A stretch of 32,046 nt of DNA. It comes from Deltaproteobacteria bacterium (lineage in GTDB: Bacteria; Desulfobacterota; DSM-4660; Desulfatiglandales; Desulfatiglandaceae). The notes beneath the pieces are model-generated. The model was not told the origin of the DNA, did no database searches, and saw nothing but the letters and a program-made list of their open reading frames with translations. Shown one piece after another: positions 1-4,748 of the stretch (position 1 is its first letter; every line of letters begins with the position of its first letter). Made by a program: the position numbers and the translations under genes. The stretch spans positions 1 through 32,046 of the forward strand of contig JAGGTJ010000134.1 in assembly GCA_021163815.1 (NCBI GenBank), given 5' to 3'.

Positions 1-2380
1 AATTTCTTACGTCGGCAATCTGGCACATACTCCCCCCGATGATGTCCTTCTGGTGGAGAGCGACGAAGATTATGTGCGGGTCTGCCGTGCGCTGTCACAC
101 CGTTTGAAACTCGATACGGCTGCGAAAGTGTGGGTGCGTTCAAAGAACCACTTTGCCTGGCTGCGGGATTTCACCGAACAGATTGGCTGTTCGTCCAGGT
201 TCGAGGAAAAAACAGCCCGTCTGGTGCTGACCGAGCAGTGGAATGTACAGGTGCCGAACTGGCTGACCGATACCGATGTTCTCGATCATGACCTTTTGGA
301 AATACATGTTGATTCTCAGAAACAGACCGATTTTGAAAGCCGTTTGCTCACACATCTCCTGGGAGTCGCCTTTCAGCCGGACATGCTGGGTAGCGCCCAT
401 CTTGTCGATGTGATCAAGGCGCTCGTCAGTGATGAAGCAAAGGCAGCATTCAAGAAATATCCGGTGCTACACCGCTGTCTCGAGACTAAATGCGAGCAAT
501 GGGCAGAGAGGAGCAACGAGACATGGATAAAGAATATCTGCAGACGGCTTCCTGAATATTCGAATGAGGTCTGGCAGTGGCTCAGCTTGTGGGCCGGCCT
601 GCACGGCTACCCCGAGAAGCTGCTGGAATACGTGCTGGCCCCGGAACAGGTTCTGCTTGTACGGAAGGTTCCCCCGGACGCGCTACACGATTTGCCTCTG
701 GAGTCTACGGCCAAGGAACAGATGCTGACCCAGATTGAACTCTTTTTTGCAGACATTGGGAAAAAAGTAAAATCGAGTGAAGATTTTCAGAAAGTTGTGC
801 AAGCGACTTCAGGAAGGCTCCTGAAAGAGTATCATCTCATTTCGAGCATTCTCAGGAGTAATCGATTTCAACCAACTGAAGAGGATGTTCAAGAGGTGCG
901 GACAAAATTCAGATATTGTCCGGGGGTGAGCGAAAACCAACTGAACGCCCTTCGCTACTGCGTTAAACCCGACCGCCCAACCCTGCTCGGGCCGGAAGAA
1001 GAATGGAGCAGCGTTGAATGGATTCGATGGACAGCTGAGGAATACGTGCCTTACCGCATGTGGCAGGTGCACAACGATTATTATGATGAAGACCTGGAGC
1101 AGACGGTAGCACGCTTCACGGAGTGGTATATCAGTGAATATGCAACGATCCACAAAGATCCAGACCTCAGCCTGACTCACTGCTTGAGGCCCCTTTCGTC
1201 GAACCGTTCAGAAAATGAGTTTTCGATAGTACTCCTTGTTGATTGCCTTCCCTTGGCTTTTATGGACCTCCTGGACGATGCCCTTCGTAACGTGGGCTTC
1301 AGTCGCCATGATTTGCACTACCGTTTCGCTGCGCTACCGACCATTACTGAATACAACAAAGCCGCACTCCTGAGCGGAGAGTGGCAAGAGAGCGCCGGGA
1401 ACTACGAGGCCATTCTCAAGACTCGCGCTATCACCGAGTGGGGCAGCAAACAGGTCGTATATCTAAGCAACCTGAAATCGATGTCGGAAATGGCGGCCCC
1501 TCAAGAGGCGACTATTGCCGTTCTCAACTTCGTGGACGGAGATGAGTTGCTGCACTCGGACGTGGAATCCAAGAACACCACGTATGAGGATGAGTTGCAC
1601 CGCCTTTTTGCCCGCATTGCTGAATCGGTAAGCAGGTTGTCACAAGAGTGGGCCGGGCCAAGGGAACAGTTAAGCGTTTATGTGGTAACCGATCATGGTG
1701 CCTGTCGCATTCTCGAAAAAGAAAAACGATCCTTTGATTCTACAGTCGTCAACAAGCTGTTTGCCAACGAAAAACACCGGTTTTCGGCCGTAGCCGAAGA
1801 TCAGATAGACGAGATACCTGAAAACTTGTGGGTGCTGGGGCATCGATTTAAGCGGCCGTTTGTTTCAGAGAACACGACCTACTTCTTGCCCAAGGGGCAT
1901 AATACCGTTCGCCAGGCAGGCAGGGTGAAAGGCTATATGCACGGCGGTGTTACCCCTGAAGAGGTTATTGTCCCGGCAGCACAGTACAAATTGGTGAAGG
2001 CGACTTGGAAAAAGCCAGCAGCGCGCTTCCTGAACCTGGACCTGACAAGAGAAACCGGCAGAGCCAAGTTCTATATTCAACGAGTCGTAACGCTGGAGGT
2101 CGAGATACAGAACCCGAACTCCTCTGACATACGTATTCTCCGAGCAAGTATCATGTCGCCTGAAACAGACCTCAAGAGCTGTGAAACCGTGGTAATACCG
2201 GCAGGGAGCGTGAACACCCTTCGAATGAACTGCTATTTCAAAAAGGCTGCCTTGGGGGAAAGAAGTCTGGAGATAGAGATCGCATATGAGATTGCCGGCG
2301 ATCAGCACACGCTCCCCATAACGCTTGAAAGTGAGTTCAGATCAGCCATGGCGAGCGGATTCAGCCTGAGGGACCTTTAA
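1..2380 (+). CDS. pglZ: PglZ-family BREX protein (alkaline-phosphatase-superfamily domain), 5' end cut by window edge
   Basis: Frame stays open to the left edge (..ISYVGNLAHTPPDDVLLVESDEDYV..), so the listed GTG at 53 is probably internal. PglZ-like core IVLLVDCLPLAFMDLLDDAL, VYVVTDHGACRIL and GYMHGGVTPEEVIVPAA. Confidence 0.85.
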   Translation, partial: ISYVGNLAHTPPDDVLLVESDEDYVRVCRALSHRLKLDTAAKVWVRSKNHFAWLRDFTEQIGCSSRFEEKTARLVLTEQWNVQVPNWLTDTDVLDHDLLEIHVDSQKQTDFESRLLTHLLGVAFQPDMLGSAHLVDVIKALVSDEAKAAFKKYPVLHRCLETKCEQWAERSNETWIKNICRRLPEYSNEVWQWLSLWAGLHGYPEKLLEYVLAPEQVLLVRKVPPDALHDLPLESTAKEQMLTQIELFFADIGKKVKSSEDFQKVVQATSGRLLKEYHLISSILRSNRFQPTEEDVQEVRTKFRYCPGVSENQLNALRYCVKPDRPTLLGPEEEWSSVEWIRWTAEEYVPYRMWQVHNDYYDEDLEQTVARFTEWYISEYATIHKDPDLSLTHCLRPLSSNRSENEFSIVLLVDCLPLAFMDLLDDALRNVGFSRHDLHYRFAALPTITEYNKAALLSGEWQESAGNYEAILKTRAITEWGSKQVVYLSNLKSMSEMAAPQEATIAVLNFVDGDELLHSDVESKNTTYEDELHRLFARIAESVSRLSQEWAGPREQLSVYVVTDHGACRILEKEKRSFDSTVVNKLFANEKHRFSAVAEDQIDEIPENLWVLGHRFKRPFVSENTTYFLPKGHNTVRQAGRVKGYMHGGVTPEEVIVPAAQYKLVKATWKKPAARFLNLDLTRETGRAKFYIQRVVTLEVEIQNPNSSDIRILRASIMSPETDLKSCETVVIPAGSVNTLRMNCYFKKAALGERSLEIEIAYEIAGDQHTLPITLESEFRSAMASGFSLRDL

Positions 2381-2423
2381 AACAATTATGAATTATGAAT
2401 GCGAAATTATGAATAGAAGCATT

Positions 2424-2634
2424 GGCATCCTTCATAGCAAGCCAAAAGTAGTTTACACTTTTAGGGATAATACACCTCAAAAAATATGACTTGTGCAATT
2501 AGCTATTAGCCGTTAGGTTTTAGCTTAATATCCCGTTTTTATAGAAGTTTTTACCTAATAGCTAACGGCTAATAGCTAATTGCTGGCATCCGTCTATGTT
2601 GAAAAAGTATAAACTACAGAATGAAGGATGTCGA
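2424..2634. repeat. Nested foldback/inverted repeat (MITE-like)
   Basis: Perfect 22-bp inner arms gcaattagctattagccgttag (2495-2516) and ctaacggctaatagctaattgc (2562-2583). Imperfect outer arms gcatccttcat..gtagtttacactttta (2425-2463) and aaaaagtataaactac..atgaaggatg (2602-2630). Confidence 0.8.
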
Positions 2635-2707
2635 AACATTGAATTCTTGGACAATTAGTCAGTGATTGAACCAGGGTAACTTCTAACAAATAAAGGAGGA
2701 ATTCAGG

Positions 2708-2746
2708 ATGAAACAGATGGATATTATTCATCATTCATCATTCTGA
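2708..2746 (+). other. 12-codon ORF MKQMDIIHHSSF with strong SD, just upstream of brxL; possible displaced brxL start or leader peptide
   Basis: AGGAGG at 2694-2699, ATG at 2708, TGA at 2744-2746. The listed brxL ATG at 2763 has no SD of its own. Confidence 0.5.
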
Positions 2747-2762
2747 ATTCATAATTCAAAAC

Positions 2763-4748
2763 ATGATGTCATTTGAACGCAAAGCGAAAGATTACTATGG
2801 CGAGGTCGTCATCAACAAAGGTCTCATGAGAAAGGCCGGATTTGGTGCCCGTGCGATTCCGGTCTATGTCGGTGAATGGATCATCAGCCAGTTCATGGAC
2901 GGAGACGAGCTGACCCCGGACGGTAGAAACGAGATTGTCAACACGGTCTCAAAGTATCTTCCGCAAAAAGCGGACAAGAACACGATCCTGAATCGCCTGA
3001 TGGAGCAAGAAGAGGTTCGTATTCTGGATGATTTTCGCGTCAACGTAAACCTGGAACGGCACACTCACGATCTCAGCATTCCGCTGTTGGATGTCAGTAA
3101 CGGGATGGTGCAAAAGGATATTATCGACAATAATCCTATGCTCCTGAAAACGGGTATGTGGGGGCTGGGTACATTGCGGTATGTCCCCCCCGATGGCGAG
3201 GACGTGAAGAAAGGCCAAATATGGATGGTCGATTTCAAGGCGTTTCAGACACCTGGGGTCGATTTAGACTACTTCAGGGAGTCACGTAAACATTTCAATA
3301 TCGACGAGTGGATCGACCTCTTGGTTTCGAGCTGTCAGTTCAATCCCGATGTCCATCGTTTATCACAAAAGCTCCTGTTGCTCAGCAGGATCATTCCCTT
3401 GGTTGAACCGAGGGTCAATCTCACGGAGTTGGCGCCGAAAGGAACCGGAAAGTCTTTTGTGTTCGACAACATAAGTCGGTATGCCGCGGTGATACCGGGT
3501 GGAAAGCTGTCGGCTCCTGCCCTGTTTTTCAATAGCAACACAAAGCAAATCGGCCTGATTCCACGATACGACGTTGTCGTGGTCGATGAAATCCAAAAGA
3601 TTCATACCGATGCATCCGGAGAGGCCATGGCGGCTCTCAAGATGTATCTTGAAAGCGGCAGATACCGCAGAGCAACAGGGGATATGGGAACGTCAGAGTC
3701 AGGATTTGTCATGCTCGGCAATATCACGCTGGGCATTAACAGATTGCCACTGTACGAAAGTGACGGGATATTCAGGGAGCTGCCGGCTGCCCTACAGGAA
3801 TCTGCGTTTATAGATCGAATCCACGGGTTGATCGAAGGATGGTTTATGCCGCGTGTATCCCGGAACACCCCATCAAAATCACTTGGATTCAAGGGGGATT
3901 TCTTTAGCGAAATACTTCATGAACTGCGTGTTGACCTGAGATATGCAGATTATGTCTCTCAGAGCTTACACCTCCCGCAATGTGAGGATATGCGGGACAA
4001 TAAGGCCATTTCTCGGCTGGCGGAAGGCTTTCTGAAACTGCTGTTTCCTGATCTCGAATTAAGCGAGGAAGAGTTCATTACCTACTGTGTAAATCCCGCA
4101 GTTCGCATGCGTCAGCAGATTCGAGATGAACTCTCGAAGATCGACCAGGAATTCAAGTGGGTCACAATAAAAAGTCAGATTCCGGATGAGTTTCAGTTGT
4201 CCCATCCCGATGAACGGCCAAACCCGGAGGAAGAAGCGAAAAAAGTCGATCCTCTGGCACCAGATCGTATTCCTGAAGAAAAAACCCTGGACCTTGTCGA
4301 GGGGCAGAAGGGAATCTCGTTTGAAAAGCTCTTCCTTCCCTATGTCAAGGGAGCCAAATCGATCAAGATTTGTGACCCGTACATTCGGCTGCAATATCAA
4401 ATATACAACCTGATGAGTTTCTGCGAGATTCTGGATCCGTCGGAAGGAACGCTGAAGGTCGATCTCGTCACGGCATGTGACACTTACCAGGAAACCGAAC
4501 TGAGAGGGAAGCTTGAGGAACTGAAAAAGGGGTTGAGCCCTGATCACATCGAGTTCAACTATGTTTTCGATAACAATCTTCATGACCGATGGATAGAAAC
4601 GGACACGGGGTGGAGAATTATCTTGGGCCGTGGACTCGACATATTCCAAAAACCTGAGGATAAGTTTACCTTGGGATTCCTGGATCAGACGAAACGGAAA
4701 TGTAAGGCAACAACAATTACCTACATTCGAGTGAAAGTAGCCTCTTGA
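2763..4748 (+). CDS. brxL: BrxL-like AAA+ ATPase with C-terminal MITD1-type (MIT_C, PLD-like) domain instead of Lon protease
   Basis: N-terminal VVINKGLMRKAGFGARAIPVYVGEWII; Walker A APKGTGKS; Walker B VVVVDEIQKI; C-terminus ISFEKLFLPYVKGAKSIKICDPYIRLQYQIYNLMSFCEIL...HDRWIETDTGWRIILGRGLDIFQKPEDKFTLGFLDQTKRKCKATTI. Next to pglZ on the same strand. Confidence 0.85.
   Translation: MMSFERKAKDYYGEVVINKGLMRKAGFGARAIPVYVGEWIISQFMDGDELTPDGRNEIVNTVSKYLPQKADKNTILNRLMEQEEVRILDDFRVNVNLERHTHDLSIPLLDVSNGMVQKDIIDNNPMLLKTGMWGLGTLRYVPPDGEDVKKGQIWMVDFKAFQTPGVDLDYFRESRKHFNIDEWIDLLVSSCQFNPDVHRLSQKLLLLSRIIPLVEPRVNLTELAPKGTGKSFVFDNISRYAAVIPGGKLSAPALFFNSNTKQIGLIPRYDVVVVDEIQKIHTDASGEAMAALKMYLESGRYRRATGDMGTSESGFVMLGNITLGINRLPLYESDGIFRELPAALQESAFIDRIHGLIEGWFMPRVSRNTPSKSLGFKGDFFSEILHELRVDLRYADYVSQSLHLPQCEDMRDNKAISRLAEGFLKLLFPDLELSEEEFITYCVNPAVRMRQQIRDELSKIDQEFKWVTIKSQIPDEFQLSHPDERPNPEEEAKKVDPLAPDRIPEEKTLDLVEGQKGISFEKLFLPYVKGAKSIKICDPYIRLQYQIYNLMSFCEILDPSEGTLKVDLVTACDTYQETELRGKLEELKKGLSPDHIEFNYVFDNNLHDRWIETDTGWRIILGRGLDIFQKPEDKFTLGFLDQTKRKCKATTITYIRVKVAS

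Follow-up and report, generated by a model that had tools for sequence, protein, structure and literature searches.

The window, i.e. the whole analysed stretch of 32,046 nucleotides from a Deltaproteobacteria bacterium, contains an open reading frame at positions 2763-4748 that was confirmed to encode a BrxL protein ending in a MIT_C domain (Table 1). The architecture that joins BrxL to a PLD-fold tail is itself already known and published (PMC12839542); the new elements are the grouping of human MITD1 with such tails, an aspartate that relocates within the conserved site of the domain, and a methylating BREX context on the Type-4 side. How BREX stops phages is an open question, and a common BrxL tail with a coevolving, strictly conserved site offers specific point mutations in this respect.

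Table 1. Features of the brxL region, with positions in the window, strand and supporting evidence
Feature	Position	Strand	Evidence
brxL-MIT_C fusion gene (661 aa)	2763..4748	+	Pfam, NCBIfam, phmmer against the PDB, AlphaFold2
BrxL_N domain, residues 11-140	2793..3182	+	PF20442, 91.4 bits
BrxL AAA+ (MCM-like) ATPase domain, residues 154-467	3222..4163	+	PF13337, 338 bits
MIT_C (PLD-like) domain, residues 517-656	4311..4730	+	PF16565, 149.9 bits; AlphaFold2; TM-score with MITD1
DPYIR motif, residues 538-542	4374..4388	+	conservation in alignments
HxRx4D motif HDRWIETD (H607, D608, R609, D614)	4581..4604	+	counterpart of PLD HxKx4D
GRGLD motif, G622-D626	4626..4640	+	R623, G624, L625, D626 invariant; covariation
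PglZ, truncated at its 5' end by the start of the contig; partner of brxL, immediately upstream	2..2380	+	weak but consistent matches
382-bp spacer between pglZ and brxL, inverted repeats	2381..2762	.	sequence; comparison with relatives

The BrxL part was assigned with TIGR02688 of NCBIfam (443 bits for a cut-off of 329) and with the Pfam families PF13337 and PF20442 (338 and 91 bits, curated cut-offs of 25 and 28). Its ATPase domain holds a P-loop, APKGTGKS, at residues 224-231 and a Walker B DE at residues 275-276, and an alignment of 38 homologues showed G227, G229, K230, S231, D275 and E276 to be invariant. The MIT_C assignment relies on a match to the full PF16565 profile (model positions 1-142 of 142, 149.9 bits for a cut-off of 25, E = 5.7e-44) and on a fold shared with MITD1. 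The AlphaFold2 model of the domain, built from 52 homologues, reached a pLDDT of 94.8, and Foldseek matched it to human MITD1 (TM-score 0.84-0.85, E = 2.5e-17), followed by members of the PLD superfamily, among them Zucchini/PLD6 (4ggj) and bacterial PLDs. A remote profile search of the PDB with MIT_C, examined for catalytic PLD nucleases, found only MITD1; matches of the profile to OR497/OR329 repeat proteins and malate dehydrogenase were judged spurious. With phmmer against the PDB, residues 10-461 of the fusion paired with BrxL 8emc/8emh and residues 506-655 with human MITD1 2ymb and 4a5z (E about 1e-23), and Foldseek of the full-length model retrieved BrxL (8emh, E = 1e-37), MITD1 and MCM helicases.

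The first-pass annotation had described a BrxL ATPase fused to a MITD1-type PLD-like domain and had placed the tail at 4304-4747. Pfam, phmmer, AlphaFold2 and Foldseek agree on this fusion, MIT_C maps within that interval, and the comparison with PF16565 and the MITD1 structures that it called for is the one given above. It was also right in missing the canonical Lon-like domain, for which no match was found in Pfam, in PDB sequences or among the 50 Foldseek matches listed for the full-length model; a Lon-like domain concealed in the tail was ruled out on these grounds. TIGR02653, the profile of Lon-bearing BrxLs, scored 258 bits for a cut-off of 628 and covered residues 5-462 only. In canonical BrxL the catalytic dyad is missing from the Lon domain (PMC12839542), so that loss of this domain is not loss of a protease. 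Pfam found no N-terminal MIT domain in the fusion protein, which thus falls outside MITD1 proper.

A PLD-type tail has been reported in Type-1 BREX, where 1030 of 2913 taxa with BrxL bear a C-terminal HKD endoDNase instead of the inactive Lon; its Lys is changed to Arg, giving an HRD motif, and the tail is viewed as an auxiliary nuclease specific to Type-1, Type-4 BrxL being without extension (Rakesh & Krishnan 2026, PMC12839542). The published HRD motif corresponds to H607-x-R609-x4-D614 of the window, and we strongly infer that the HKD endoDNase and MIT_C are almost certainly the same domain. Such Type-1 proteins share with the window BrxL the N-terminal and MCM-like AAA+ parts, a PLD-fold tail replacing the inactive Lon, and the H-x-R-x4-D motif, whereas the BrxL core of the window lies on the Type-4 side and the operons of its relatives are without Type-1 BrxC and PglX. 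BrxLs with an inactive Lon-like domain (8emc, 8emh) resemble it in the N-terminal domain and the AAA+ motor (24-25 % identity in structural alignment), but their C-terminal domain is unrelated to MIT_C.

A single scan in which the MIT_C domain was the query returned 572 matches from a species-level genome collection, and 80 of these relatives were kept. At 75 of these 80 independent loci MIT_C lies in the same ORF as a BrxL core; of the remaining five, four are truncated where the contig ends and one is split. Given this recurrence as a single ORF, and an intact reading frame in the window with zero stops or frameshifts, a fusion arising by chance, frameshift or assembly artefact was ruled out. 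Within the window's phylum, 7 of 297 genomes gave a match to the domain, as did 9 of 289 Verrucomicrobiota (the phylum of locus L089) and 19 of 297 Bacteroidota (that of L048); most of the ORFs concerned measure about 670-710 aa, as BrxL-MIT_C does. Plasmid copies of the fusion are mostly labelled 'BREX system Lon protease-like protein BrxL', in which 'Lon protease-like' is a misnomer. As regards a phage-borne source, a search of 50,697 phage records with MITD1 as query found no MIT_C; the domain is present on 23 IMG/VR contigs, often as part of a complete BrxL ORF. Weak 59-125 MIT_C matches in L007-L010 and L012-L014 were taken as false positives, the proteins being MalK-type ABC ATPases where readable.

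MIT_C also occurs with other partners. It is followed by 17 Sel1 repeats in L171 (8113-11310), a DISARM/Dpd-like locus that also encodes a DpdE/DrmD-like helicase, a DrmMI-like methyltransferase and an Mrr nuclease, and it forms the C-terminus of a 947-aa dynamin-family GTPase (LeoA-like) on a plasmid of Candidatus Thiodictyon syntrophicum (L125, 4628-7471). In L172 (5780-6706), the gene of an NsnB-like (Menshen) AAA ATPase is followed immediately by that of a divergent MIT_C protein, both genes lying within a type III restriction locus. This adjacency, together with a weak PADLOC match of NsnC to window residues 528-636, recalls Menshen (NsnA-NsnB-NsnC), although that system has no BrxL and its similarity to the window is remote. 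Li et al., in their 2025 Menshen paper, are said to have been the first to report a BrxL with an HKD-endoDNase tail.

Conservation within the domain is concentrated in the motifs of Table 1. Across 52 domain sequences D538, P539, Q546, H607, R609, W617, R623, G624, L625, D626 and Q629 are invariant, and R542 and D614 are at least 90 % conserved; the full-length alignment of 38 proteins likewise gave D538, P539, R542, H607, R609 and R623-D626 as invariant. The site departs from the PLD/HKD motif HxKx4Dx6GSxN: HxRx4D is present, the Lys of HxK being Arg in all copies that match the motif, and RGLD stands in place of GSxN. D614 is replaced by Asn or Ser in 11 of 105 sequences. Residue 629 is Lys in MITD1 and in the dynamin and Sel1 fusions and Gln in nearly all BrxLs, a small hint that MIT_C members outside BrxL may differ in ligand or partner.

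Exactly one of residues 608 (H+1) and 622 (H+15) is Asp in 105 of 105 sequences, the pairs being D/G (54), A/D (47), R/D (3) and D/S (1). On a tree built with these two columns left out, the state changed seven times and every independent pair was reciprocal; on supported branches all five switches were reciprocal, although a sign test on five pairs (p = 0.0625) cannot reach 0.05. The rule held in 19 of 19 sequences of a held-out set fetched later and separately (D/G 10, A/D 9), and two further damaged sequences obey it (T/D with R623C; A/D with H607Q). Human MITD1 belongs to the D/G class. Because the two positions covary without exception, an acidic group is kept on one or the other, and the swap looks, from the alignments, as would be expected of a strongly constrained functional site or of a salt bridge that is essential. 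This relocating active-site aspartate of the BrxL tail appears to be undescribed.

A DNA-acting role is the best-supported reading of MIT_C, with catalysis putative, and we lean slightly towards the tail of BrxL being a DNA-acting, probably phosphodiester-processing effector module. This preference is based on the PLD-superfamily fold, the invariant motifs, the reciprocal Asp swap, the DNA-defence contexts and the published endoDNase reading; it was counted down because HxK is HxR, a form inactive in PLD1/PLD2, and because GSxN is absent. As judged from the operons of relatives, an N6-adenine methyltransferase together with a DUF4007/SspB-like protein, an SspC-like BrxC and PglZ would mark host DNA. 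Unmarked DNA would lead to loading of the BrxL ring, whose MCM-like AAA+ motor is evident in its fold and whose action would follow published BrxL work. The MIT_C domains, probably as dimers at the ring rim, would then act on the phosphodiester backbone of phage DNA through a site formed by H607, R609, D608 (or D622), D614, R623 and D626, binding the backbone and probably cutting or processing it. As a counter-point, nearly all of the invariant residues are also present in human MITD1, for which a part in cytokinesis and membrane binding are described; such residues can be structural, and the Asp swap could reflect a salt bridge and not catalysis.

It is conceivable, though we rather doubt it, that MIT_C is a catalytically dead PLD-fold scaffold that replaces the dead Lon and holds two BrxL rings together or docks a BREX partner, with no chemistry. 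The K-to-R change at HxK would fit, as K898R and K758R serve as catalytically inactive mutants of PLD1/PLD2 (PMC3648575), and so would the equally inactive Lon domain of canonical BrxL (PMC12839542), the 14 and 12 chains of the solved BrxL entries, as expected for double rings, and the true Type-4 BrxLs, which manage without any tail. Strict invariance of H, R, D and Q together with the reciprocal Asp swap exceeds, however, the obvious needs of a scaffold, and MIT_C moves onto unrelated partners.

The overall interpretation of the first-pass annotation stood as regards domain identity and was not supported as regards its other part, action at membranes. A tail that tethers BrxL to the inner membrane, or perturbs it, as in MITD1, is improbable in our view, even though MITD1 is the closest fold and is reported to bind membranes (Hadders et al. 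2012), and even though a dynamin-family GTPase of bacterial origin carries MIT_C and shares Lys629 with MITD1 and the Sel1 fusion. BREX and restriction-modification contexts act on DNA, as would the published putative endoDNase; the domain is net acidic on average (mean charge -4.9; -2 in the window, -4 in MITD1) and has a conserved polar site; BrxL has Q629 rather than Lys, and no other membrane feature was seen among the Pfam matches of the fusion protein.

Human MITD1 (2ymb, 4a5z) has in common with the window domain its fold and the DPYIR, HxR, GW and GRGLD motifs, at 36 % identity; it differs by Asn at 614 and Lys at 629, and by a MIT domain and an ESCRT partner that are absent from the window BrxL. 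Identity to human MITD1 is 44-45 % for the BrxL tails of L089, L048 and L002 and 47.6 % for that of a Thioflavicoccus plasmid BrxL, and trees join MITD1 to one subgroup of BrxL tails with a support of 100/100. A placement inside the 13 bacterial MITD1-like members and one as their sister are not separated by the AU test (p = 0.54), the tree holding a single eukaryotic sequence. The term 'eukaryote-like', applied earlier to the tail, probably has the direction wrong: the domain occurs widely among bacteria, and MITD1 falls together with a single subgroup of BrxL. In this MITD1-like group, the locus inspected in detail (L132) is a Type-1-like BREX with BrxB, BrxC (682 bits), PglX and PglZ, and the BrxL core of the group is sister to the Lon-bearing 8emc (SH-aLRT 88; long branches).

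We tentatively raise the idea, which at present seems to us rather unlikely to hold in full, that eukaryotes acquired the PLD-like domain of MITD1 from a BREX effector of bacteria. On this view MIT_C would be an anti-phage module that acts on phosphodiesters, with an atypical active site of HxR and a relocating Asp. Type-1 BREX, the methylating BREX of the Type-4 side and loci resembling DISARM/Dpd or Menshen would have this module in common, and ESCRT-dependent cell division would have taken it up later, perhaps with the site still intact. Such a link, if true, places a protein of human cell division among those that eukaryotes owe to prokaryotic immunity, and it predicts which MITD1 residues are of interest. 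The MITD1 kinship of the BrxL tail appears undescribed in the searchable literature: a literature search found no paper with BrxL and MITD1 together, and the text of PMC12839542 makes no mention of MITD1.

BREX genes on the window contig comprise the truncated pglZ and brxL only. The PglZ ORF matches BREX_PglZ_4 of NCBIfam (37.8 bits) and PglZ in PADLOC, and its TDHG and HGG..PEEVIVP motifs are readable. Nearly all intact relatives encode a PglZ homologue of about 800 aa upstream of brxL, from a 4 bp overlap to a 17 bp gap, and the 382-bp insert is absent from relatives, most intact ones having -4 to 17 bp between the two genes. The spacer has a 34-nt inverted repeat (arms 2495-2528/2550-2583), a further pair of arms at 2384-2415/2725-2756 and flanking ATTCATAATT-type repeats. 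It probably arose by insertion of a small MITE-like element, of which the window's MAG yielded no further copy. BrxC was not found in the rest of this MAG, which is 71 % complete. A degenerate or decaying locus, i.e. a fusion real in the family with a window copy that is no longer functional, is highly unlikely: the MAG origin, the pglZ broken by the contig end, the inverted-repeat insert, the BrxC result and the decay of the related locus L131 would fit it, but the ORF is intact with every invariant residue present, and several homologues found in other phyla match BrxL at 89-93 % identity along its length. Beside the BREX fragment, positions 5573-29599 hold CbiC, CobB and CobQ (cobalamin), an ABC-2 transporter, CheR, ribosomal protein genes, EF-Tu and rpoBC, which are ordinary chromosomal genes.

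The operon to which the window's BREX would belong was read from the loci of relatives. It starts with a DUF4007/SspB-like protein, a 154 aa protein and a 1320 aa N6-methyltransferase with GNPPW, and continues with a variable gene set (SLFN_AlbA_2; GmrSD_N/NsnA with a HEPN-like protein; or an OLD-type ATPase of HEC-01 type with DUF4276), a 1347 aa SspC/BrxC-like ATPase, the 800 aa PglZ and BrxL-MIT_C. As in Type-4 BREX (BrxP, BrxC/SspC, PglZ, short BrxL), DUF4007 (47 bits), an SspC-like BrxC (110 bits) and the order PglZ-BrxL are present in the operons of L126-L130, these features being found in relatives and not in the window's MAG, and the BrxL core tree places the window group as sister to Type-4 BrxLs, apart from Type-1 (SH-aLRT 100). 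The group differs from Type-4 in three respects. An N6-methyltransferase with GNPPW occupies the place of the PAPS reductase of phosphorothioation, no BrxP-like protein or PAPS reductase being found in the window group, where the BrxP query from L139 matched three true Type-4 loci only. PglZ of the window and its relatives scored 31.7-37.8 bits for a BREX_PglZ_4 cut-off of 140, and stayed under every NCBIfam BREX cut-off. Finally, BrxL carries MIT_C, whereas the Type-4 control loci L139-L141 encode BrxP, BrxC, PglZ and a short BrxL of 485-498 aa with no tail. Type-1 membership was not found either, as the BrxC of L128 gave no NF033441 match and PglX models remained far under cut-off. On these sequence criteria the window group is best read as a variant of BREX on the Type-4 side that methylates and whose BrxL has a tail; the AU test (p = 0.51) did not separate an independent gain of MIT_C on this side from common descent.

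Such an operon misfits two published generalisations, i.e. that Type-4 uses phosphorothioate modification and that Type-4 BrxL has no C-terminal extension (PMC12839542), and it bridges the phosphorothioate and methylation branches of BREX. L126-L130 and L135 combine DUF4007, an N6-methyltransferase, an SspC-like BrxC, PglZ and BrxL-MIT_C, a Type-4-like chassis with methylation instead of phosphorothioation, and this variant is apparently undescribed. In L016, L018, L019 and L020, a swap site lies directly upstream of BrxC, with extra genes that differ from one relative to the next.

The BrxLs of close relatives are 74-93 % identical and come from Acidobacteria, Planctomycetota, Thermodesulfobacteriota and others, a presence in many phyla that we read as wide transfer. 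In L016-L020 and L025 the BrxL or its MIT_C tail hardly differs between bacterial phyla, or between these and one contig of an archaeon (Methanophagales), which suggests that horizontal transfer has been recent and wide or, in single cases, that a MAG was wrongly binned.
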